Positions 23,110 to 33,579 of a DNA stretch of 64,000 nucleotides are shown piece by piece. Every line of letters begins with the position of its first letter. Position 1 is the stretch's first letter. The stretch is from Chryseobacterium lactis. Its GTDB lineage: Bacteria > Bacteroidota > Bacteroidia > Flavobacteriales > Weeksellaceae. Under the pieces are notes generated by a model, which was given only the letters and a program-made list of their open reading frames with translations, did no database searches and had not been told where the DNA came from. The stretch spans positions 3,472,001 to 3,536,000 of the forward strand of contig NZ_CP033924.1 of the NCBI RefSeq assembly GCF_003815875.1. The letters run 5' to 3'. The position numbers were made by a program, and so were the translations under genes.

Positions 23110-26100
23110 ATGAAGAAAAACATAATCTTAGTTTCAACACTATTGAGTTGCTTATTTAATGCTCAGGGTGTACAAAACTATATGAATTATAAGAATAATT
23201 TCTTTCCTCAAAGCCCTAATGCAACTCCATTTGCATTGGCTGGAAAGTATCCTGTCAATATGTATAAAGGGGTTCCTTCTATTAGTATTCCTTTATTCAG
23301 TCAACAAAAAGGGCAAAGTAATTTTGTAATATCTTTAGATTATAATGTAAAATCAATTAAACCATCTACTATTCCTACATGGACAGGACTCGGCTGGAAT
23401 CTTAACATTGGAGGTTCTGTAACAAGAATTGTAAATGGAGGAGTGGATGAAGTATATACGGGAATTTATAGTCCTAGTATTCCTTACAATCATTTTTCTT
23501 ATTTGGACAATTATTCTATGTTGGACAACCCCAATTGGAATACATTTGATGGTATGGTTAATTATTATAATATTAATTTTGATAATACCATAATCAATGG
23601 CTTTCCAACTGTAGTTCCTTCACCTGATGAATTTATTATTAACATAAATGGTATAACAGGTAGTTTTTACATGAATGAAAAAGGAAAATGGGTCGGGCGT
23701 ACCAAAGAGGGGAGAACATTTAAGGTTGAACATCAATATAAGTTTGATTACAAACTTCCTGAAACGGTTATCGTAGGGACACAATATACAACAATTCCAA
23801 AGTATACTACATTGAAAAGAATTTTATATGGATTCAATATTATCATGGATGATGGCACAAAATATATTTTTGGACTAGATGATACTGCTATAGAATTTTC
23901 TTCACCGCCAGAGCAGGTAGATACAATCTTTAACCCACATATTATTCCGGCTTCTTGGCAAATAAAGGAGATTATTTACCCGGATGGAAAGAATACAAAA
24001 TTTACCTATGTAAGAGACGAGCGAAGTGTTTTTGTGATGAACAGAAGTGGTAATGCTTCATGGGATAAAAATGGTTCATTATTTAGTAATACGAGTAATG
24101 ATAATACATCATCTTCAGGACAAATTTATAATATTAGCAGTAACCGCTTAAATAATGTTTTTTTGACAAAGGTGGAAGGGGAAGACTTTATTGTCAATCT
24201 TGAGAGATCTGCAACAAATCAGAAAGAATATGATGAGCTGGAGTTCCCGTCAAGTGAATGGGTCGTTCAATATACCCATCATATAAAGAGTTATACTAAT
24301 CATAAGCATTGGTATAAACTTGACAAGATCAAAGTTTCTGATAAGGCAGGAAATGTTATCAAAAATATAGCTTTTAATTATAATAATGACCCAAATGACC
24401 GTCTTTTACTCAATAATCTATCTATAAATACAATAGAGAAGTATACCTTTCAGTATAATAATTTAAAACTACCCAAATATACAACAGATCAAACTGATGG
24501 ATGGGGTTACTATAATGGAAACAATTTTGAACCTGATCATTTCTCTCTATATTTAATGTCTTCAGAGCAGCAAAAAAATGTGTTTCAAAATGTTTATCCG
24601 AGTTATAAACAGCCTAATCTTACTTTGACCAAAGCACAAACTTTGGAGGAAATCACTTTCCCGACGGGTGGAAAAACATATTTTGAATATGAACTCAATG
24701 ATTATTCGAAATATGGAGAGAAGAATATGAATCAAACTGAATTACTGTTGTATACAACTCCTGCCATTAAGGAAGCCTCTGGTGGATTAAGGATAAAAAA
24801 AATAAAGTCATGTAATGAAAATAGCAATTGTTTTAGCAAGATGTATTCATACGTTAACGATGATGGTGTCTCTTCAAGCGGGATCCTTCCATACAAAGCA
24901 GTCTATGTAGTTGAAGGTGGAATACCAAACATGAATTATAGTTTCTGGGATTTTAATTATAATTCTTACCAAACTCTTAAGGACGAGGATAATAGTGTAG
25001 GATATAGCAAGGTAACTGAAATTGATGATAATGGCGGAAAAAAAGAAACTTATTTTACCAATTTTGATCGTGCAGGTTCGAATGATAAAATTGGAGTAAA
25101 ATATCTTGGTTGGGAAATTCCGGCTTTATTTAAACAACTTCCTTACACATCCTTTTCTTTAATGAGAGGTAAACCATTAAAAGAAATTGTATGGTCTGAT
25201 ATCAAAAAGGTAAGTGAAACCAATTATATTTATACTCAACAGCAAGATCATCTTAGATCTTATACGTCAATTTATAAGCGTTTTAGTCAAAATTTAGGAA
25301 GTAATGGTTTTACAAATGCAGGAACATGGTATGGTGTTTTATTGGATGCGCATCAGATAAATTTCAATACGAGTTTCTTGTCTGAGAAGAAGACTTTTTT
25401 TGACGGGGTTGAAACTAAAGAAACAAACATTTATAACAATATTTACAATACGCTTATCAGCCAGACACAAACAGATGCAAGTAATAATTATACGAGAATA
25501 TATAGCTATGCTTGGGATATAAGTAACCAGGCGATGGCTGATGCCTATATGGTCGGTATTCCTGTAATTGAAGAGACAAAAAAAAACAATAAAACAATTT
25601 CAAAAAAGGAAACTATTTATCCTGTCTCCATTCCAACTTCTCAAACAGGAAGCTTAGTATTGCCACTATCGATAAAATCCTTTGATCTTCAAAATCCTGG
25701 TACTTCAACAACAGAAGTAACCTACGATAAATACGACTCTAAAGGCAACCTCCAGCAATACACCACAAAAGACGGTATTTCAACAACAATCATCTGGGGA
25801 TACAATAATACTCAGCCGATTGCCAAAATTGAAAATGTAAAATTAGCAGATATTAATCCTTCCTTTATCAATGCTATTGTCGCGGCTTCTGAGACGGATG
25901 CTGCGGCAGGGGCTAATAACGATGAAACTGATTTGTTGAATGCTTTCAAAACATTTAAAAACAATTTATCAGGTTACAAAATCACTACCTACAGCTACGA
26001 CCCGCTGATCGGAGTCAGAAGCATCACTCCTCCTTCGGGAATTAGGGAGAGTTACCTCTATGATTCCGCAGGCAGACTTGAAAAAGTGATCAATGCAGAT

Positions 26101-26142
26101 GGCAACTTATTAAAAGAATTTAAGTACAACTACAAACAATAA
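23110..26142 (+). CDS. SpvB/RHS-type secreted protein
   Basis: A 1010-residue protein with a signal peptide (ends at LFNAQ). The N-terminal region (PVNMYKGVPSISIPLF, then WTGLGWNLNIGGSVTRIVNGG) resembles the start of SpvB/TcdB-like proteins. The C-terminal part has RHS-type YD motifs (TYSYDPLIGVRSITPPSG, then YLYDSAGRLEKVINADGN). It lacks the RHS-associated core and a toxin tip, ending KEFKYNYKQ. So it may be a shell or scaffold partner for the Rhs protein three genes on. It is 6 bp behind the T9SS-sorted protein and 13 bp before the tail-fibre-like gene. No T9SS domain is visible. Confidence 0.78.
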   Translation: MKKNIILVSTLLSCLFNAQGVQNYMNYKNNFFPQSPNATPFALAGKYPVNMYKGVPSISIPLFSQQKGQSNFVISLDYNVKSIKPSTIPTWTGLGWNLNIGGSVTRIVNGGVDEVYTGIYSPSIPYNHFSYLDNYSMLDNPNWNTFDGMVNYYNINFDNTIINGFPTVVPSPDEFIININGITGSFYMNEKGKWVGRTKEGRTFKVEHQYKFDYKLPETVIVGTQYTTIPKYTTLKRILYGFNIIMDDGTKYIFGLDDTAIEFSSPPEQVDTIFNPHIIPASWQIKEIIYPDGKNTKFTYVRDERSVFVMNRSGNASWDKNGSLFSNTSNDNTSSSGQIYNISSNRLNNVFLTKVEGEDFIVNLERSATNQKEYDELEFPSSEWVVQYTHHIKSYTNHKHWYKLDKIKVSDKAGNVIKNIAFNYNNDPNDRLLLNNLSINTIEKYTFQYNNLKLPKYTTDQTDGWGYYNGNNFEPDHFSLYLMSSEQQKNVFQNVYPSYKQPNLTLTKAQTLEEITFPTGGKTYFEYELNDYSKYGEKNMNQTELLLYTTPAIKEASGGLRIKKIKSCNENSNCFSKMYSYVNDDGVSSSGILPYKAVYVVEGGIPNMNYSFWDFNYNSYQTLKDEDNSVGYSKVTEIDDNGGKKETYFTNFDRAGSNDKIGVKYLGWEIPALFKQLPYTSFSLMRGKPLKEIVWSDIKKVSETNYIYTQQQDHLRSYTSIYKRFSQNLGSNGFTNAGTWYGVLLDAHQINFNTSFLSEKKTFFDGVETKETNIYNNIYNTLISQTQTDASNNYTRIYSYAWDISNQAMADAYMVGIPVIEETKKNNKTISKKETIYPVSIPTSQTGSLVLPLSIKSFDLQNPGTSTTEVTYDKYDSKGNLQQYTTKDGISTTIIWGYNNTQPIAKIENVKLADINPSFINAIVAASETDAAAGANNDETDLLNAFKTFKNNLSGYKITTYSYDPLIGVRSITPPSGIRESYLYDSAGRLEKVINADGNLLKEFKYNYKQ

Positions 26143-26155
26143 AAAAACAGGAATT

Positions 26156-27274
26156 ATGAAAAAAGTAATATTCATAGCAGGTATATTAACATTTCAATTT
26201 GCATCATCACAACTTTACACCTCTGCAGGTGTTGTCAATCAAAGCTCAACTCCCGCTTCCAATAACATTGGGATCGGAATTCATAATCCTCATTCCAATT
26301 TAGAAGTGGGAGACCAAAATGGAGGTAAAATAACGATTTCTACAGCAGGATGGAGTGCTTCTTCTTCCAATCCCAAATATCCTACATTAGAATTTGCAGG
26401 ATACCAGAATTCACCCAAAGTAAGAATAACAGCTACAGAAGAGACAGGAAACACAAACGGTTCCAAATTTTCGATTTTAGTGAATGATAACAACGGTGCT
26501 ACCAACCTTGTTGAAAGGTTTTCAATTTTGCAAGACGGAAAAGTAGGAATAGGAACCTCTACACCTGTTGAAAGACTAGATGTTTCGGGAAACATTATTG
26601 CAGGAGCCAGCAGCTCCACAGCAGGGATTAACGCCTTTGCCATACGATATGAGGATGGTTCTTTGAGTAACTGGGGAGCCTTACGCAGCTCAGCTTCTAC
26701 GTATATGAGTTTTGGAGCCAAAGCTAATCCATCAAATTTAGGATGGCTATCCAGTAACGGAACATTGAATTTTGCAAAAACCGCAATTACCTTAGACAAT
26801 GAAGGGTTAAGATTTCTTGCCTCCCCTGCTCAGCAAGCTGCCTTAAACGCTCCGGTATCCCTGAATGAACTTCTGAAGATTTCTCCCAACGGAAATGCTC
26901 TGTTGAATGGAAAACTGGAAGCCAAAGAAATTAAAATTACCCATACTCCAACTGCCGATTTCGTTTTTGAAAGTACCTACGATCTTCCCAAATTAGAAGA
27001 TGTGGAGAAGCATATCAAAGAGAAAAAACACCTTCCGGAAATTGCTTCCGGAAAAGTAATGGAAAAAGAAGGAGTAAACATCGGAAGCTTTCAGATTCAG
27101 TTGTTGCAAAAAGTTGAAGAACTGACTTTATACAGCATCGAACAAAACAAACAACTGAAAAATCAGCAGGAAAGAATCCAGCAACTGGAAACAGAAAATG
27201 CAGAACTTAAAAAACTACATCAGGAAGTAGAACAGCTAAAAAAGCAATTTCTTACCCTTAAAGCCAATCACTAA
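26156..27274 (+). CDS. Tail-fibre-like secreted protein with C-terminal coiled coil
   Basis: A 372-residue protein with a signal peptide (ends FASSQ). Residues ~35-150 have repeated NIGIGxxxPxxxLEV / KVGIGTSTPVERLDVSG motifs, as in trimeric tail fibres and adhesins. The C-terminus has the block YDLPKLEDVEKHIKEKKHLPEI followed by a heptad coiled coil (in outline; EELTLYSIEQNKQLKNQQ). The same C-terminal block occurs in the protein at 56081. It lies between the SpvB-like and Rhs genes with gaps of 13 and 5 bp. A structural or adhesive role in the secreted assembly is likely. Confidence 0.75.
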   Translation: MKKVIFIAGILTFQFASSQLYTSAGVVNQSSTPASNNIGIGIHNPHSNLEVGDQNGGKITISTAGWSASSSNPKYPTLEFAGYQNSPKVRITATEETGNTNGSKFSILVNDNNGATNLVERFSILQDGKVGIGTSTPVERLDVSGNIIAGASSSTAGINAFAIRYEDGSLSNWGALRSSASTYMSFGAKANPSNLGWLSSNGTLNFAKTAITLDNEGLRFLASPAQQAALNAPVSLNELLKISPNGNALLNGKLEAKEIKITHTPTADFVFESTYDLPKLEDVEKHIKEKKHLPEIASGKVMEKEGVNIGSFQIQLLQKVEELTLYSIEQNKQLKNQQERIQQLETENAELKKLHQEVEQLKKQFLTLKANH

Positions 27275-27279
27275 TCACC

Positions 27280-30200
27280 ATGAATAAAAAAATAGGTACA
27301 ATCCTTTTATTAGCAGGAAGTGTGCTTCATTACGGCCAGATCGTTCTGAATTCCTCACCCACTCCTAATACAGAGGTCTCAGACCCCCACAGCATACGGC
27401 TGCTTCCGGGATTCAGTTTCGGTTCTGCGAGCGGAACTTTCCGAGGCTTTCTGGGATCCACCAATAACTCAGGGAACAACCCGTATGTTCCTGTGACGGT
27501 AGATCCCACGACCAATATATCCGGTAGTGAAAATTATATTTATACCCGGGAATATCTGGTTCCCACCACGACTTCAAATCCGGCATTACAACAGATACAA
27601 AACATCCAGTTTTTTGACGGATTGGGAAGACCCAAGCAAAATATTGGCATCAAATCCACCTCTGGAGGAAAGGATCTTGTTACTTCCATTCCGTATGACA
27701 ATTTTGGCCGTCAGGTAGATTCCTGGCTTCCGGTACCTATGTCTTCACAAAATGGGAATATCCAGTCCGGAGTAGAAGGCAGTGCTACTGCTTATTATCA
27801 ATCCAATGGAATTAATGATTCATCTCCGTTTACTCATAAAACACTGGAAAACTCCCCTCTTGACCGGGTTTTAAATGTTAAAAATCCAGGAGCCGATTGG
27901 CAGAATAAGCCGGTTACCTTTGGATATGATGCCAATGTAGCTGGTGAAGTATATCAACATGTTACCTCTACAACATGGGAGAATGGAGCCACTAAAACGG
28001 TATTGAGTTTAGCTCCTTCTCCAACCTACTTACCCAATCAGCTATATAAAAACACGATAAAAGATGAAGAAGGAAATGAAACTATTGAATTTAAAAACGG
28101 ACAAGGCCAAACCATACTCGTCAGAAAAGTATTGGATGTTTACACCCATGTAGACACCTACTATGTATATAATGAATATAACCAGCTGGCTTTTGTTCTT
28201 CCACCTCAGGCAATCAACAAACCCATTACAGAGACTTTACTGAGTGATCTGTGTTATCAATATCGCTATGACGGAAGGAGTAGACTTGTAGAGAAAAAGC
28301 TTCCGGGAAAAGGCTGGGAATACATGGTCTATGATAAGCAAGACAGATTAGTAGCTACCCAGGATGCCAATTTAAATGCAAAAGGTCACTGGCTGTATAC
28401 CAAATACGATAAATTTGGAAGAGTGGCCTATACAGGGATAAACACCGGCGGAACAAGGTCTCAGGAACAAACTGAAGCCAATACATTTGGCAGCAATAGT
28501 GTAGATCGGGGAAATTCTTCATTTTTTAACAGACAGGGAATGGATGTGTATTATAGTAATTCCGACATCACCTATCCTAAGTCTCCTACCTGGGTTACCT
28601 TATTGTCTTTGAATTATTATGACTCTTATCCGGGATACAGTTTCAATCCTTCATTTCCTGCTACAATACAGGGAGAACCTGTTTTAACGGCAACACCAAC
28701 CTCTGACGGAAGAAGTACCAATAGCCTTCCTCTTGTCAGCCTGGTGAAAAATATTGAAGATGATAACTGGACAAAAAACTATACCTATTATGACCTCAAA
28801 GGAAGGGCGATAGGATCGCATTCAATCAACCATCTGGGTGGCTATGCGAGAACGGAAAGTCTGCTGAAGTTCTCAGGAAAACCAAACTATACGCTTAGTT
28901 TTCATAAAAGAACTCAGAATGATACCGAGATCAGTATTAAAGAATCTTTTGAGTATGATCATCAGGAAAGAATGGTAAGACACTGGCATCAGGTAAATGG
29001 AGCCAACAAGGAACTTCTTGCCGAGAATGTATATAACGAGCTGGGACAACTGCAGACTAAAAATGTAGGAAACACCACAGGAAGCCCGTTACAAAGTGTT
29101 AATTATGCCTATAACATCCGGGGTTGGCTGACCAAAATTAACGAGCCTTCCAATTTGCTTACCAAGCTTTTTGCATACGAGTTAAGATACAACAATCCTA
29201 ATGCCCAGTTCAGCGGAACGGCCAAATACAACGGTAATATTTCCCAGGCAGCCTGGATTACCCAAACTGATGCCGTACTGAGAAATTATTCCTACGAATA
29301 TGATCCTTTAAACCGACTGAAAGAAGGCCGCCTTTGGGATGCTATGAACTTAGACCGGGGAGAATATACCGAAAACCTGACCTACGATCTTAACGGGAAT
29401 ATTGGTAGTTTGAAAAGAAAAGGCAGACAGTTCCCAGGATATACCGCTCCCGAAAACATGGATGATCTGGCATACGAGTACACAGGAAACCGCTTAACCA
29501 AAGTACGTGATATTTCTGAAAACCCTTCAGGATATCCTATTGGAGGAAAAGCCTTTGCTTACGATGATAACGGAAATATGACGGTTCAGGAAGACAAAGG
29601 ACTCACCATCCGGTACAATTATCTGAACCTGCCTCAAAATATCCTTTCTCCACAAGGAAATACATCTTATGTATACAGTGCTGATGGAGTAAAGGTGAAA
29701 AAAATGGCAGGAAGTAAAGTCGTAGATTATCTGACCGGTTTCCAGTATGAGAACAATACATTACAATTCTTCCCAACCTCAGAAGGCTATTTTGATTATG
29801 TGAAAAATAAGTATATTTACAATTACACAGATCACTTAGGAAATGTACGATTAAGTTACATGAACGGCGGGTCAGGAATAGAGATCATTGAGGAAAGCAA
29901 TTACTATCCGTTTGGGTTGAAGCATGAAGGGTATAATACTTTGAACGGGAATGCTGCCTATCAGTATAAGTACAATGGAAAGGAGCTCCAGGAGACGGGA
30001 ATGTATGATTATGGAGCGAGGATGTATATGCCGGATATTGGACGATGGGGTGTGGTAGATCCGCTGGCGGAGAAGATGAGAAGATGGTCGCCTTATAACT
30101 ATGCTTACAACAACCCAATAAGATATATTGATCCAGACGGAAGAGCTCCTTTCGGAGACTTCTTTGGTACTTCAGGAAAGTATCTAGGTAGTGATGGAAA

Positions 30201-30840
30201 AAATGATGGAAAAGTATACTTAAGTCAAGGAAATAAAAGTAATTATTTAACAGCGGGCAAGCAAGAAGTTGCTGGAGGATTAGCTTCTTTAAGTGCTATT
30301 TCTAGATCATTAAGTATGACAAATTCTCCTTCAAACCATAAAATTAGCCCTGACTCTAAAGGCGGACATCACGAAGTTAGAGCAGATATTGACTTAGCAG
30401 GAAAGAGAACAACATTCACAGAAGGAGGTAAAACTTCTATAAGTGGCGGTGTTGCAGGTGCAGAAGTTAATGGTTTTGATATAATGAGTCAACACGGTAT
30501 TAAAAACGATATAAAATCTGATATTGTGCTTCATACCCATCCTACAGCAACAACAGTAGAAAGTACCGCTACTGCGGGGCAATTCAAAGTTTATACTTTG
30601 ACTGCAACAGATCCTTCTGCTGCTGATACGGCAGATTTTGCTAAGAGAGATACGAATATTATTGCAGGTAACTTGGAAAAAAATACAGTACAGGTAAATG
30701 CGGATGGTTCTTTCGCTGATCCAAATAATAAACAGGGTGCTGTATTTTATGACAGAAGCGGAAGTGAAACTATGAGAATTGAATCATCTACAGTTAATAA
30801 AATATTATCTAATTATGAAAATGGTCAAATCAAACCTTAA
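27280..30840 (+). CDS. DUF6443 Rhs protein with C-terminal JAB/JAMM-like toxin domain
   Basis: A 1186-residue polymorphic toxin. A short signal peptide is followed by a DUF6443 domain (YTREYLVPTTTSNPALQ, then IQFFDGLGRPKQNIGI). Many YD repeats form the Rhs shell. The RHS-associated core spans ~843-955 ([18 protein letters not shown] to [19 protein letters not shown]). The tip (~956-1186) has HTHP at 1085-1088 and SAAD at 1113-1116. These match the H-x-H and S-x2-D parts of the JAMM zinc-peptidase motif. I read it as a JAB-like toxin. The immunity candidate overlaps its end by 20-26 bp. Confidence 0.85.
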   Translation: MNKKIGTILLLAGSVLHYGQIVLNSSPTPNTEVSDPHSIRLLPGFSFGSASGTFRGFLGSTNNSGNNPYVPVTVDPTTNISGSENYIYTREYLVPTTTSNPALQQIQNIQFFDGLGRPKQNIGIKSTSGGKDLVTSIPYDNFGRQVDSWLPVPMSSQNGNIQSGVEGSATAYYQSNGINDSSPFTHKTLENSPLDRVLNVKNPGADWQNKPVTFGYDANVAGEVYQHVTSTTWENGATKTVLSLAPSPTYLPNQLYKNTIKDEEGNETIEFKNGQGQTILVRKVLDVYTHVDTYYVYNEYNQLAFVLPPQAINKPITETLLSDLCYQYRYDGRSRLVEKKLPGKGWEYMVYDKQDRLVATQDANLNAKGHWLYTKYDKFGRVAYTGINTGGTRSQEQTEANTFGSNSVDRGNSSFFNRQGMDVYYSNSDITYPKSPTWVTLLSLNYYDSYPGYSFNPSFPATIQGEPVLTATPTSDGRSTNSLPLVSLVKNIEDDNWTKNYTYYDLKGRAIGSHSINHLGGYARTESLLKFSGKPNYTLSFHKRTQNDTEISIKESFEYDHQERMVRHWHQVNGANKELLAENVYNELGQLQTKNVGNTTGSPLQSVNYAYNIRGWLTKINEPSNLLTKLFAYELRYNNPNAQFSGTAKYNGNISQAAWITQTDAVLRNYSYEYDPLNRLKEGRLWDAMNLDRGEYTENLTYDLNGNIGSLKRKGRQFPGYTAPENMDDLAYEYTGNRLTKVRDISENPSGYPIGGKAFAYDDNGNMTVQEDKGLTIRYNYLNLPQNILSPQGNTSYVYSADGVKVKKMAGSKVVDYLTGFQYENNTLQFFPTSEGYFDYVKNKYIYNYTDHLGNVRLSYMNGGSGIEIIEESNYYPFGLKHEGYNTLNGNAAYQYKYNGKELQETGMYDYGARMYMPDIGRWGVVDPLAEKMRRWSPYNYAYNNPIRYIDPDGRAPFGDFFGTSGKYLGSDGKNDGKVYLSQGNKSNYLTAGKQEVAGGLASLSAISRSLSMTNSPSNHKISPDSKGGHHEVRADIDLAGKRTTFTEGGKTSISGGVAGAEVNGFDIMSQHGIKNDIKSDIVLHTHPTATTVESTATAGQFKVYTLTATDPSAADTADFAKRDTNIIAGNLEKNTVQVNADGSFADPNNKQGAVFYDRSGSETMRIESSTVNKILSNYENGQIKP

Positions 30841-31273
30841 TAAAACCATAAGCTTACTAGTATTTTTTGTATCAATTACAATTTACAGTCAAAAAGTTAA
30901 TTTGATAATTTTTATAAATGATGAAATTATCACAAGTCCTTTAGGTTTAGAATTTCACAATAATACTTCCACTAACACATACAAGTATACTTATTCTCCA
31001 GGAAAAGAAGTCGACACTGATATTAGTGATATTTTTAAAGAAAATATGATATTGCAATTTAATGCGTATGGAGACAAAGAAAACCTAACTAAACGCTACA
31101 GCTATAATATACCTCTTGAAGCGGGTCTATTTAATGATACCTCTTTTCTGATTATAAAAATCTACAATCTAGATAAAAAAGAATACAGAAAAAAATACTG
31201 CAAATCAAAAGAACTTTATATCGTAGACTTTCATAAAAGTGGACTTCATATAAATACTGGAATATGCAAGTAA
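30815..31273 (+). CDS. Exported immunity protein candidate for the Rhs JAB-like toxin
   Basis: About 152 residues. I start it at ATG 30815, or 30821 two codons later; both overlap the Rhs stop codon (30840), which suggests coupled translation. A signal peptide precedes QKVNLIIFIN, so the protein acts in the periplasm or on the outer membrane. It shares blocks with the second immunity gene at 32831: a YSPGKEV / YFPGKFV motif and the IKIYNLDKKEYRKKY / LYIYNTDNKNYKNIY motif. No known family is recognised. A strong terminator follows. Confidence 0.65.
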   Translation: MKMVKSNLNKTISLLVFFVSITIYSQKVNLIIFINDEIITSPLGLEFHNNTSTNTYKYTYSPGKEVDTDISDIFKENMILQFNAYGDKENLTKRYSYNIPLEAGLFNDTSFLIIKIYNLDKKEYRKKYCKSKELYIVDFHKSGLHINTGICK

Positions 31274-31277
31274 TAGC

Positions 31278-31304
31278 AAACCCCTCGCATTTTGCGAGGG
31301 GTTT
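31278..31304 (+). terminator. Terminator of the Rhs locus
   Basis: AAACCCCTCGCA (31278-31289) pairs exactly with TGCGAGGGGTTT (31293-31304). A TTATTGT tail follows. It ends the Rhs-immunity transcript and separates it from the orphan cassette. Confidence 0.85.
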
Positions 31305-31639
31305 TATTGTGTGATAATCTGTTGTAGATTATCTTTCATTCTTTTGTTAGAAATTGCTAGGTCAATCATTTTAAGCAAGGCTTGTTGTTCATCTTCAGGA
31401 AGCAGATCAATCAATTTTATTTTTTCTAAAAGCGGTAAATTGAGTTCTTTCTGCAAATCGTTGTCATTAAAAAATTCACTTACAGAAACTCCGAAAACTT
31501 TAGCCAATTTTTCTAATGTAGAAATAGACGGTTCTACTTTGCCATTTTCAATCCTAGAGTATTGACCTTGTGGAATACCCGAATCCGTGCAAATCTCTTT
31601 TTGAGAAAGGTTTTTAACCTCTCTTATGATAGATGTTTA
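31304..31639 (-). pseudogene. XRE-family regulator lacking its N-terminus
   Basis: On the minus strand the frame reads EVKNLSQKEICTDSGIPQG, QYSRIENGKVEPSISTLEK, LAKVFGVSVSEFF and then an acidic and helical tail ending LQQIITQ. This is a Cro/CI-type helix-turn-helix protein. The first ~10-15 residues with the start codon are missing: upstream of residue EVK the frame meets stops at 31640-31642 and has no ATG. The first available Met (31507) lies after most of the DNA-binding domain. The break coincides with the start of the cassette fragment on the other strand. Confidence 0.6.
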
Positions 31640-31774
31640 TTATTAAGAAAGAAAGTATTAGAATTGCAAGAATTGGATTTATGGAAAATAGATTTAATAA
31701 AAACTAATGAAAAATGGAGGGAAGTCATTGTGCTTTGTGATAAAATAAAAGATATGATTAAAAAAATTAAATAG
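31631..31774 (+). pseudogene. 3' fragment of a cassette gene, possibly an old immunity gene
   Basis: The open frame ending at TAG 31774 encodes a charged C-terminal segment (LLLRKKVLELQELDLWK, then TNEKWREVIVLCDKIKDM). It has no start or ribosome-binding site of its own. It is followed after 8 bp by the same hairpin that closes the orphan toxin-immunity cassette (33490). By position it is the tail of an earlier cassette's last gene, cut off where the XRE remnant begins. It is not similar to the two exported immunity candidates. Confidence 0.4.
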
Positions 31775-31782
31775 TCCCTCGC

Positions 31783-31811
31783 TGCCGCACGAATCCTTTC
31801 GTGTGGCATTT
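31783..31811 (+). terminator. Cassette-boundary terminator (left copy)
   Basis: TGCCGCACGAA (31783-31793), TCCT loop, TTCGTGTGGCA (31798-31808), then TTTTG. The stem has one G-U pair. The same hairpin, with one base difference in the stem, lies at 33490-33515 behind the orphan cassette. Confidence 0.75.
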
Positions 31812-32831
31812 TGTTATTTTGACAATTCAAAAATTAAGTATATTTACAATTATACAGATCACTTAGGAAATGTACGATTAAGTTACATGAACGGGGGATC
31901 AGGAGTAGAGATCATTGAGGAAAGTAATTATTACCCGTTTGGGTTGAAGCATGAAGGGTATAATACGTTGAGCGGGAATGCTGCTTATCAGTATAAGTAC
32001 AACGGAAAGGAGCTTCAGGAGACGGGTATGTATGACTACGGAGCACGATTCTATATGCCGGATTTAGGAAGATGGGGAGTTGTGGATCCGAAAGCAGAAT
32101 TAATGCGCCGTTGGTCACCGTACAATTATGCATTTGATAATCCAATACGTTTTATTGATCCAGATGGAAGAGCTCCTCTTACTGATTTTTACAATTTAAA
32201 TGGGAAAAAGATTGGTACAGATGGCGTAAATAATGGAGTTAGAGTTGTAGTTACTGACAAGGATGAGGCGAAATCAATTTCAAAAATAAAAGGAAATGTT
32301 GATGCAAGTTCTGTTACGTCGGGTGTTACCCTTCCAGGCACAGCTGTATTGAAAGAAAGTTTAAATGTTTTGGATAGAACAGTGAAGAATGGGGGCAAAA
32401 AAGAAGAAAGTTCCATTGTAATGAAAGATGGAACTGTTATACAAGGAAAACAAGGTGCGGAAGTTAAATATGGCGTAGATGCATATGCAGGTGCTACGTT
32501 ACCTGACCTACCTTCGGGTAAAACCCCAGCTGATGCAGCAGCAACGATACATTCTCACCCTACAAAAACGGAAGCTATTGGAGAAAAAGTTTACAGTGGT
32601 AATGCGCAAGAACCATCAGGAACAGACACAACAACCTTTGCTCAATATGGGACAAATGTTATTGTTGGACCTCAAGGTTACTCTACAGGGCAACAGGGTA
32701 TCAATCCTTCAACTGGAAAAATGGAAGTAACAACTAATGCTAATCCAAATGGAATTTCTATTTATAGTGGTGCCAATACAACATCATCTGTAAATCTTAC
32801 TAAAAAAGCCGTTGAAAAAATATTAGAATAA
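31803..32831 (+). CDS. Orphan Rhs core fragment with alternative JAB-like toxin tip (silent cassette)
   Basis: From ~31836 the sequence repeats the Rhs core of the main gene (29809-30148) with roughly 90% nucleotide identity by eye, up to the PDGRAP motif. It then diverges into a different tip. That tip has HSHP at residues 250-253 and SGTD at 272-275, again the JAMM pattern. The only in-frame start (GTG at 31803) lies inside a terminator hairpin and has no ribosome-binding site. So the unit is probably not translated unless recombination joins it to the main gene. It overlaps its immunity gene by 1 bp (TAATG). Confidence 0.75.
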
Positions 32832-33325
32832 TGAGAAACCTTATATTAATATTAGTATTCCTTTTATCATCTAAAATCTCATCGCAGAGTAAAGAAGGAA
32901 ATATAATTATAACAGTAGATCAAAATGTACATCCTTCTCTTAGTAATATGTATATTTTGAAAGGAGACCAAAAGTATTATATCAGTTATTTTCCTGGCAA
33001 GTTTGTAATAAAAGAAGCAGATTATCAGGATTTGTTACATAAGGATAATTCATCTTCTTTAAAATTAGTTTTGAGTAGTAACTTACAATGTAAAGATGAC
33101 CTAACATCAAAACTTTATGAAATAGAGGATTTTAAATTAAGTTGGTTGGATCAGCCATATGTTATTCTTTACATTTATAATACAGACAATAAGAATTATA
33201 AAAACATTTACAATCCTTTGCCAGGAAAAGCCTATACATATGATTATGAATATCCTGGAGGAACAATGAAAAGAGTTCAAAAGTCGTTTACTAAAGACCA
33301 GAAGAAATGTCAAACGAATAATTAA
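32831..33325 (+). CDS. Exported immunity protein candidate of the orphan cassette
   Basis: A 164-residue protein. The signal peptide ends around KISSQ (residue ~19). The body shares motifs with the immunity candidate at 30815 (see that entry), so both are paralogues and both are exported. Its ATG overlaps the TAA of the orphan toxin. Cysteines near residues 88 and 161 could form a disulfide in the periplasm. It could be expressed from its own weak promoter within the toxin tip to guard against siblings; none is evident. Confidence 0.62.
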   Translation: MRNLILILVFLLSSKISSQSKEGNIIITVDQNVHPSLSNMYILKGDQKYYISYFPGKFVIKEADYQDLLHKDNSSSLKLVLSSNLQCKDDLTSKLYEIEDFKLSWLDQPYVILYIYNTDNKNYKNIYNPLPGKAYTYDYEYPGGTMKRVQKSFTKDQKKCQTNN

Positions 33326-33375
33326 AAGGTAATACTTATAGTCTACGAGTTTTTGACTTAGTTGTAGATACAAGC

Positions 33376-33438
33376 AAAACCGCTGCCTTAGCAGTGGTTT
33401 TCTTGTTCTGTTTTCATTTACAAAACAGAACAAGAAAA
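33376..33438 (+). terminator. Two overlapping hairpins after the orphan immunity gene
   Basis: AAAACCGCTGC (33376-33386) pairs with GCAGTGGTTTT (33391-33401). The T-run of its right arm is also the start of a second, perfect 17-bp stem: TTTTCTTGTTCTGTTTT (33398-33414) with AAAACAGAACAAGAAAA (33422-33438). The first resembles a standard terminator, the second lacks a G/C-rich core. Confidence 0.65.
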
Positions 33439-33489
33439 ATAAATCTTTTGGATAATGTTTAGAGCTAGAATAAAAGGGTTCCACGACGC

Positions 33490-33518
33490 TGCCACACGAA
33501 TCCTTTCGTGTGGCATTT
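33490..33518 (+). terminator. Cassette-boundary terminator (right copy)
   Basis: TGCCACACGAA (33490-33500) pairs perfectly with TTCGTGTGGCA (33505-33515) around a TCCT loop, followed by TTTT. The context (..GCTGCC.CACGAATCC..) repeats that at 31781. The orphan cassette is therefore bracketed by direct copies. Confidence 0.75.
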
Positions 33519-33579
33519 TATTAATCATTACTTTTTGTAAACTAGCTCATTTTTATATCTTTATCTAAAACAGATAGTG

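Follow-up and report, generated by a model that had tools for sequence, protein, structure and literature searches.

The question raised by this stretch of Chryseobacterium lactis DNA is why a complete rhs gene is followed, on the same strand, by a second copy of just the end of its core, joined to a different C-terminal tip. The window analysed, to which all positions refer unless stated otherwise, is 64,000 nucleotides long and comprises bases 3472001-3536000 of the 5.62-Mb single-contig genome. Its main rhs gene (27280-30840, plus strand) encodes a protein of 1186 amino acids with a signal-peptide-like N terminus (judged by eye), a DUF6443 domain (PF20041, 119.5 bits), an Rhs core (Rhs_assc_core, 62.2 bits), and a JAMM-like tip, in agreement with an earlier first-pass annotation that had called it a signal-peptide-bearing DUF6443 Rhs protein. 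With a probability of roughly 85%, we read the downstream segment at 31815-33325 as an orphan Rhs C-terminal toxin/immunity cassette that forms a reservoir of tips used via recombination.

The end of the main Rhs core (29788-30150, plus strand) is duplicated in the orphan as about 120 codons (31815-32174, plus strand). Positions 29788-30087 align with 31815-32114 over 300 nucleotides at 85% identity, and by codons, 113 of them, amino acid identity is 92%, with nonsynonymous (dN) and synonymous (dS) divergences of 0.064 and 0.712 and a dN/dS ratio of 0.09. Both copies share the residues ...DPDGRAP, beyond which they lead into different tips (30151-30840 in the main gene and 32175-32831 in the orphan, both plus strand), each then followed by a small open reading frame (ORF); the first-pass annotation is thus borne out in its claim of a core-end repeat that leads into another tip with an immunity gene of its own. 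The small ORF after the main tip (30815-31273, plus strand), whose start was set by eye at an ATG, overlaps the 3' end of rhs, and the ATG of that after the orphan tip (32831-33325, plus strand) overlaps the tip stop codon by 1 nucleotide. Both products look exported, as each has a signal-peptide-like start by eye, and they are weakly alike (27% identity over 126 residues, E 0.002 in a single comparison); their predicted role as immunity proteins derives from their position and this weak mutual similarity. The orphan reading frame, tip, and immunity gene are all intact.

Related genomes bear out the cassette layout. The comparison set was 173 genomes of the genus, the C. lactis genome included, with one genome per species. 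In two other species, relatives of the orphan tip end long open frames of 1195 (G145, 83% amino acid identity) and 1140 codons (G084, 80%), i.e., the same tip is there carried on a full-length Rhs protein; it is also found in an orphan frame of 280 codons in G123 (83%), and weaker relatives are present in 15 further genomes. Upstream, the G145 protein has a core of another subfamily, and only its tip and about the last 190-215 nucleotides of its core are highly identical to the window orphan, the switch to the different core lying about 63 residues before the tip. This switch point appears to be a natural recombination joint, and it offers indirect support for recombination. Conversely, G082 carries the main tip (80%) at the end of a full-length protein, and relatives of this tip occur in orphan fragments of G053 (71%) and G158 (frame-broken), as well as in G074, where the fragment carries more of the core. 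Over nine pairs, dN/dS of the tips was 0.135-0.221, alike for main and orphan partners.

A second locus in the same genome (L009) has the same cassette layout, and neither window tip was found there. Its main core is 99% identical in amino acids over residues 1-830, and many nucleotide blocks are 100% identical to the window, but the last three 100-column blocks before the tip are progressively less alike (94, 89, and 68%). In G083, a syntenic locus with both flanks matching contains the core (80% amino acid identity) and four orphan fragments; neither tip gave a tblastn match there, nor did the tip or immunity stretches give a blastn match, and the locus thus holds other tips. A survey was made of 27 stretches, a non-random sample picked for core or hairpin matches and including five from the C. 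lactis genome. Its 94 core-end fragments comprised 71 orphans and 23 mains, the latter defined by a long core upstream; four of the orphans were flagged as lying after a shorter core stretch. The frame stays open for at least 40 codons past the core in 61 of the 71 orphans and in all 23 mains, and the core fragment itself is unbroken in 58 and 22, respectively. The left borders of the orphan fragments are concentrated in two parts of the core, around main residues 836-850 and 893-901; these clusters recur in different species, after different upstream sequences.

How the reservoir would be used can be outlined from the arrangement. A crossover between the two core-end copies, which span about 340 nucleotides and lie 2.0 kb from each other, would join the orphan tip, together with its immunity gene, onto the main core, and the same event would loop out the old main tip. 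In the long term, incoming cassettes would recombine through the conserved core end and push older tips downstream, a displacement that would leave arrays and immunity-gene remnants. The present strain may switch tips in this way. For Salmonella, PMC3967940 presents evidence that such a reservoir is used by homologous recombination within the core end, and core-end recombination of tips is among the proposals made for polymorphic toxins generally (PMC3482391). Between the two units of the window lies a 3' remnant (31640-31774, plus strand), probably of the immunity gene of a third cassette, that matches the ends of open frames of 113-123 codons in four other species. The locus probably bears traces of three cassettes, because relatives of this remnant lie downstream of Rhs core fragments, as seen on the same strand in two of the four species (G021 and G166).

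A close parallel is the orphan Rhs-CT/RhsI cassette of Salmonella LT2 (Koskiniemi 2014, PMC3967940), in which, as described there, a main rhs gene is followed by a core-end fragment that leads into another tip with a separate immunity gene. The core-end overlap reported for LT2 is 522 bp at 95% identity, as against about 340 bp at 85% here, and an orphan tip that recurs on full-length proteins elsewhere is common to both. Unlike in LT2, the core here is of the Bacteroidota DUF6443 type with a signal-peptide-like start, both tips are JAMM-like, and the edges carry hairpins resembling repetitive extragenic palindromes (REP), and recombination at the present locus is a proposed step. The orphan CdiA-CT/CdiI arrays outlined by Poole 2011 (PMC3150448) likewise consist of displaced tips with immunity genes, and most CdiA-CT orphans are stated to have no translation start, but the delivery protein is another one, a VENN motif is present, and the orphan of strain EC93 is co-transcribed, whereas terminator-like hairpins intervene here. 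The TANFOR polymorphic toxins (PMC7073777) come from the same phylum and are presented with a different N-terminal domain. Both orphan cassettes and RHS-borne JAB tips in Bacteroidetes are already published; none of the open-licence papers listed describes the present arrangement by title and start of abstract, most of the subscription literature being outside the scope of that search. What is added is documentation, in a Bacteroidota genus in which several species carry arrays, of an orphan-tip reservoir of the kind worked out experimentally in enterobacteria, together with concrete pairs of loci at which tip exchange can be followed, and with REP-like borders and recurrent joints as leads on how cassettes are excised and joined.

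Both tips had been called JAB-like. A JAMM-type fold was predicted for each, with the E, HxH, and SxxD residues in place, but the Pfam Toxin-JAB1 profile (PF15659) matched neither tip and no member of groups A1 and A2. In a six-frame search of the C. lactis genome, the same profile matched three other places, two of them above its cut-off; one full-length Rhs gene (L010, about 5474060-5477555 of G000:C1) has a tip that scores 22.3 bits against a cut-off of 21. We infer that both tips act as toxins, and because both immunity proteins look exported, a site of action in the cell envelope is suggested. The Tox-JAB-1/Imm65 pairs on Bacteroidetes RHS proteins, as characterized in Zhang 2012 (PMC3482391), similarly combine a JAB/JAMM tip, a Sec-exported RHS protein, and an exported immunity protein; they differ in that PF15659 reaches neither tip here, and in that Imm65 is reported to be a lipoprotein, while no lipobox cysteine was seen by eye near the end of the signal-peptide-like segment of either immunity protein here. 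The same paper puts forward JAB toxins as possible nucleases; exported-looking immunity proteins beside JAMM-like tips would point instead to an envelope target.

A 37-nucleotide direct repeat bounds the orphan cassette (31780-31816 and 33487-33523, 95% identical); it was absent from the first-pass annotation. Each copy contains a hairpin, at 31783-31808 on the left edge and in direct orientation at 33490-33515 on the right (both plus strand). Copies of the hairpin sequence, TGCCRCACGAATCCTTTCGTGTGGCA, occur in 99 of the 173 genomes, numbers per genome ranging from 0 to 15, with at most three mismatches to the 26-nucleotide pattern, and a reversed control pattern yielded no copies among the matches listed. 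In the C. lactis genome, the four copies within three mismatches are the pairs bounding the window orphan and the L009 orphan; a fifth, weaker copy, detected with a shorter pattern at 438649, is away from both cassettes. In a sample of 30 copies, taken singly from the first 30 genomes listed and scored on the same strand, four lay directly before an Rhs core fragment and three more only after one. At loci of a gene resembling REP-associated tyrosine transposases (RAYT), by contrast with other Y1 transposase loci (0 of 30 in a similar window), a hairpin copy was close by in 24 of 30, and in 11 of the 30 copies stood on both sides, always in opposed orientation. The repeat thus flanks RAYT-like genes genus-wide, and because of this association the cassette borders are read as probable REP-like elements doubling as terminators. 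The RAYT label is provisional, drawing on similarity, the hairpin association, and motifs: the gene from which the search started (L146) scores 13.5 bits against Y1_Tnp, below the Pfam cut-off of 23. By eye, the 5' foot of 30 hairpin copies mostly ends in GC, a few have GTAG at the 3' foot, and there is no consistent tag. Bacteroidetes subclass 2.6 of the REP/RAYT (TnpA-REP) systems, as set out in PMC6006769, also has hairpins near a Y1-transposase-like gene and more copies elsewhere in the genome; here, however, copies are few, carry no consistent GTAG or CGTC tag, and edge toxin cassettes, and the L146-type gene is a candidate member. In G052, the counterpart of the right flank of the window's locus has one hairpin and the end of an L009-type orphan immunity gene (86%); the G052 main gene lies elsewhere and is frame-broken near the core end.

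Several observations weigh against a silent but usable reservoir, and they bear on two of its alternatives. Further in-frame ATGs lie inside the orphan core fragment, the first at 31887, so that the claim of a sole in-frame start within a terminator stands in part: GTG 31803, the first such start, does sit in the stem of the hairpin, but others follow it. The orphan fragment at L009 has two frame breaks; core fragments are broken in 13 of the 71 surveyed orphans, that of L009 included, versus one of the 23 mains, which shows that decay affects some cassettes, and recombination upstream of a break of this kind would produce a broken gene. Low pairwise dN/dS may also date in part from an earlier time in a main gene. 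Should the orphan be expressed in place from an internal start, it might be a small toxin/antitoxin-like module, or be maintained for its immunity gene alone. The internal ATGs would allow this, and the overlap of the tip stop codon and the immunity ATG suggests coupling; a promoter-like site at 31819, at the start of the orphan fragment, has one mismatch to a flavobacterial promoter consensus. There are, however, 50 such sites on the plus strand of the window (0.78 per kb), and because it occurs at background frequency this one neither supports nor opposes expression; its TTG is TTA in the L009 orphan. RHS elements have been put forward as type II toxin-antitoxin modules in Salmonella, according to PMC7043789, and the account of E. 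coli EC93 in PMC3150448 has its orphan cdiI expressed by co-transcription with the main gene. The missing ribosome-binding site is weak evidence, because Shine-Dalgarno sequences are, as summarized in PMC3155529, generally absent in Bacteroidetes. Expression in place is nevertheless rather unlikely: terminator-like hairpins lie upstream, including one 3' of the main operon (31278-31304, plus strand), and the L009 fragment is frame-broken. Because these hairpins intervene and no own start is obvious, the orphan toxin is probably not made, i.e., silent, in the present arrangement. Alternatively, the orphan might be what is left of a former main tip, decaying and serving no further purpose, as the 13 broken fragments and the probable immunity remnant at 31640-31774, with the XRE-type remnant adjoining it, could imply; we think this improbable, as the orphan frame, tip, and immunity gene are intact, the JAMM residues are retained, and dN/dS of the orphan tip against three relatives is 0.135-0.172.

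The edge hairpins raise a further alternative, in which a RAYT-type transposase acts on the two direct end hairpins and moves the cassette as a non-autonomous element. That direct hairpins stand at both edges of the orphan cassettes at both loci, accounting for all four copies within three mismatches in the genome, and that copies accompany RAYT-like genes and not other Y1 loci across the genus, are in its favor. Set against this, copies are opposed at all of the two-sided RAYT loci and direct here; the hairpin has the look of an ordinary terminator as well; the weaker copy at 438649 lies apart from both cassettes; an Rhs core fragment adjoins only seven of the 30 sampled copies when the same strand is counted; other arrays carry different terminator-like sequences at the equivalent place; and the sole RAYT-like match in the C. 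lactis genome (G000:C1:3543991-3544296, about 8 kb to the right of the window) is 50% identical and broken by stops. We therefore regard such movement as very improbable. Equally far-fetched would be a fuller scheme in which a trans-acting RAYT excises the single-stranded cassette at the two direct hairpins and core-end pairing places it, such that tips circulate like integron cassettes, although, were it true, the recurrent left borders (836-850 and 893-901) would reflect preferred joints. An orphan cassette exchanged by recombination in the core end remains our preferred reading.

Some minor features of these loci may be added. The remnant of an XRE-type regulator gene (31304-31620, minus strand) was recognized by eye, and its RstR-family match has an E value of 0.021 and 15.1 bits against a cut-off of 80. 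Around 9474-9860 of L096 (G083:C44), a stop-bearing RAYT-like match stands beside an Rhs core fragment, between two hairpin copies. At L143 and L147 (in G006 and G056), hairpin copies occur in rows, mostly 0.3-1.7 kb apart in L143, and as opposed pairs about 200 nucleotides apart in L147; the small genes between them had no match to the window Rhs core queries. Both in the window (23110-27274) and at L009 (L009:123-3021), genes for an RHS-repeat protein and a coiled-coil-like protein lie ahead of the main rhs gene, and these upstream pairs are alike in their 3' parts but not in their 5' parts.

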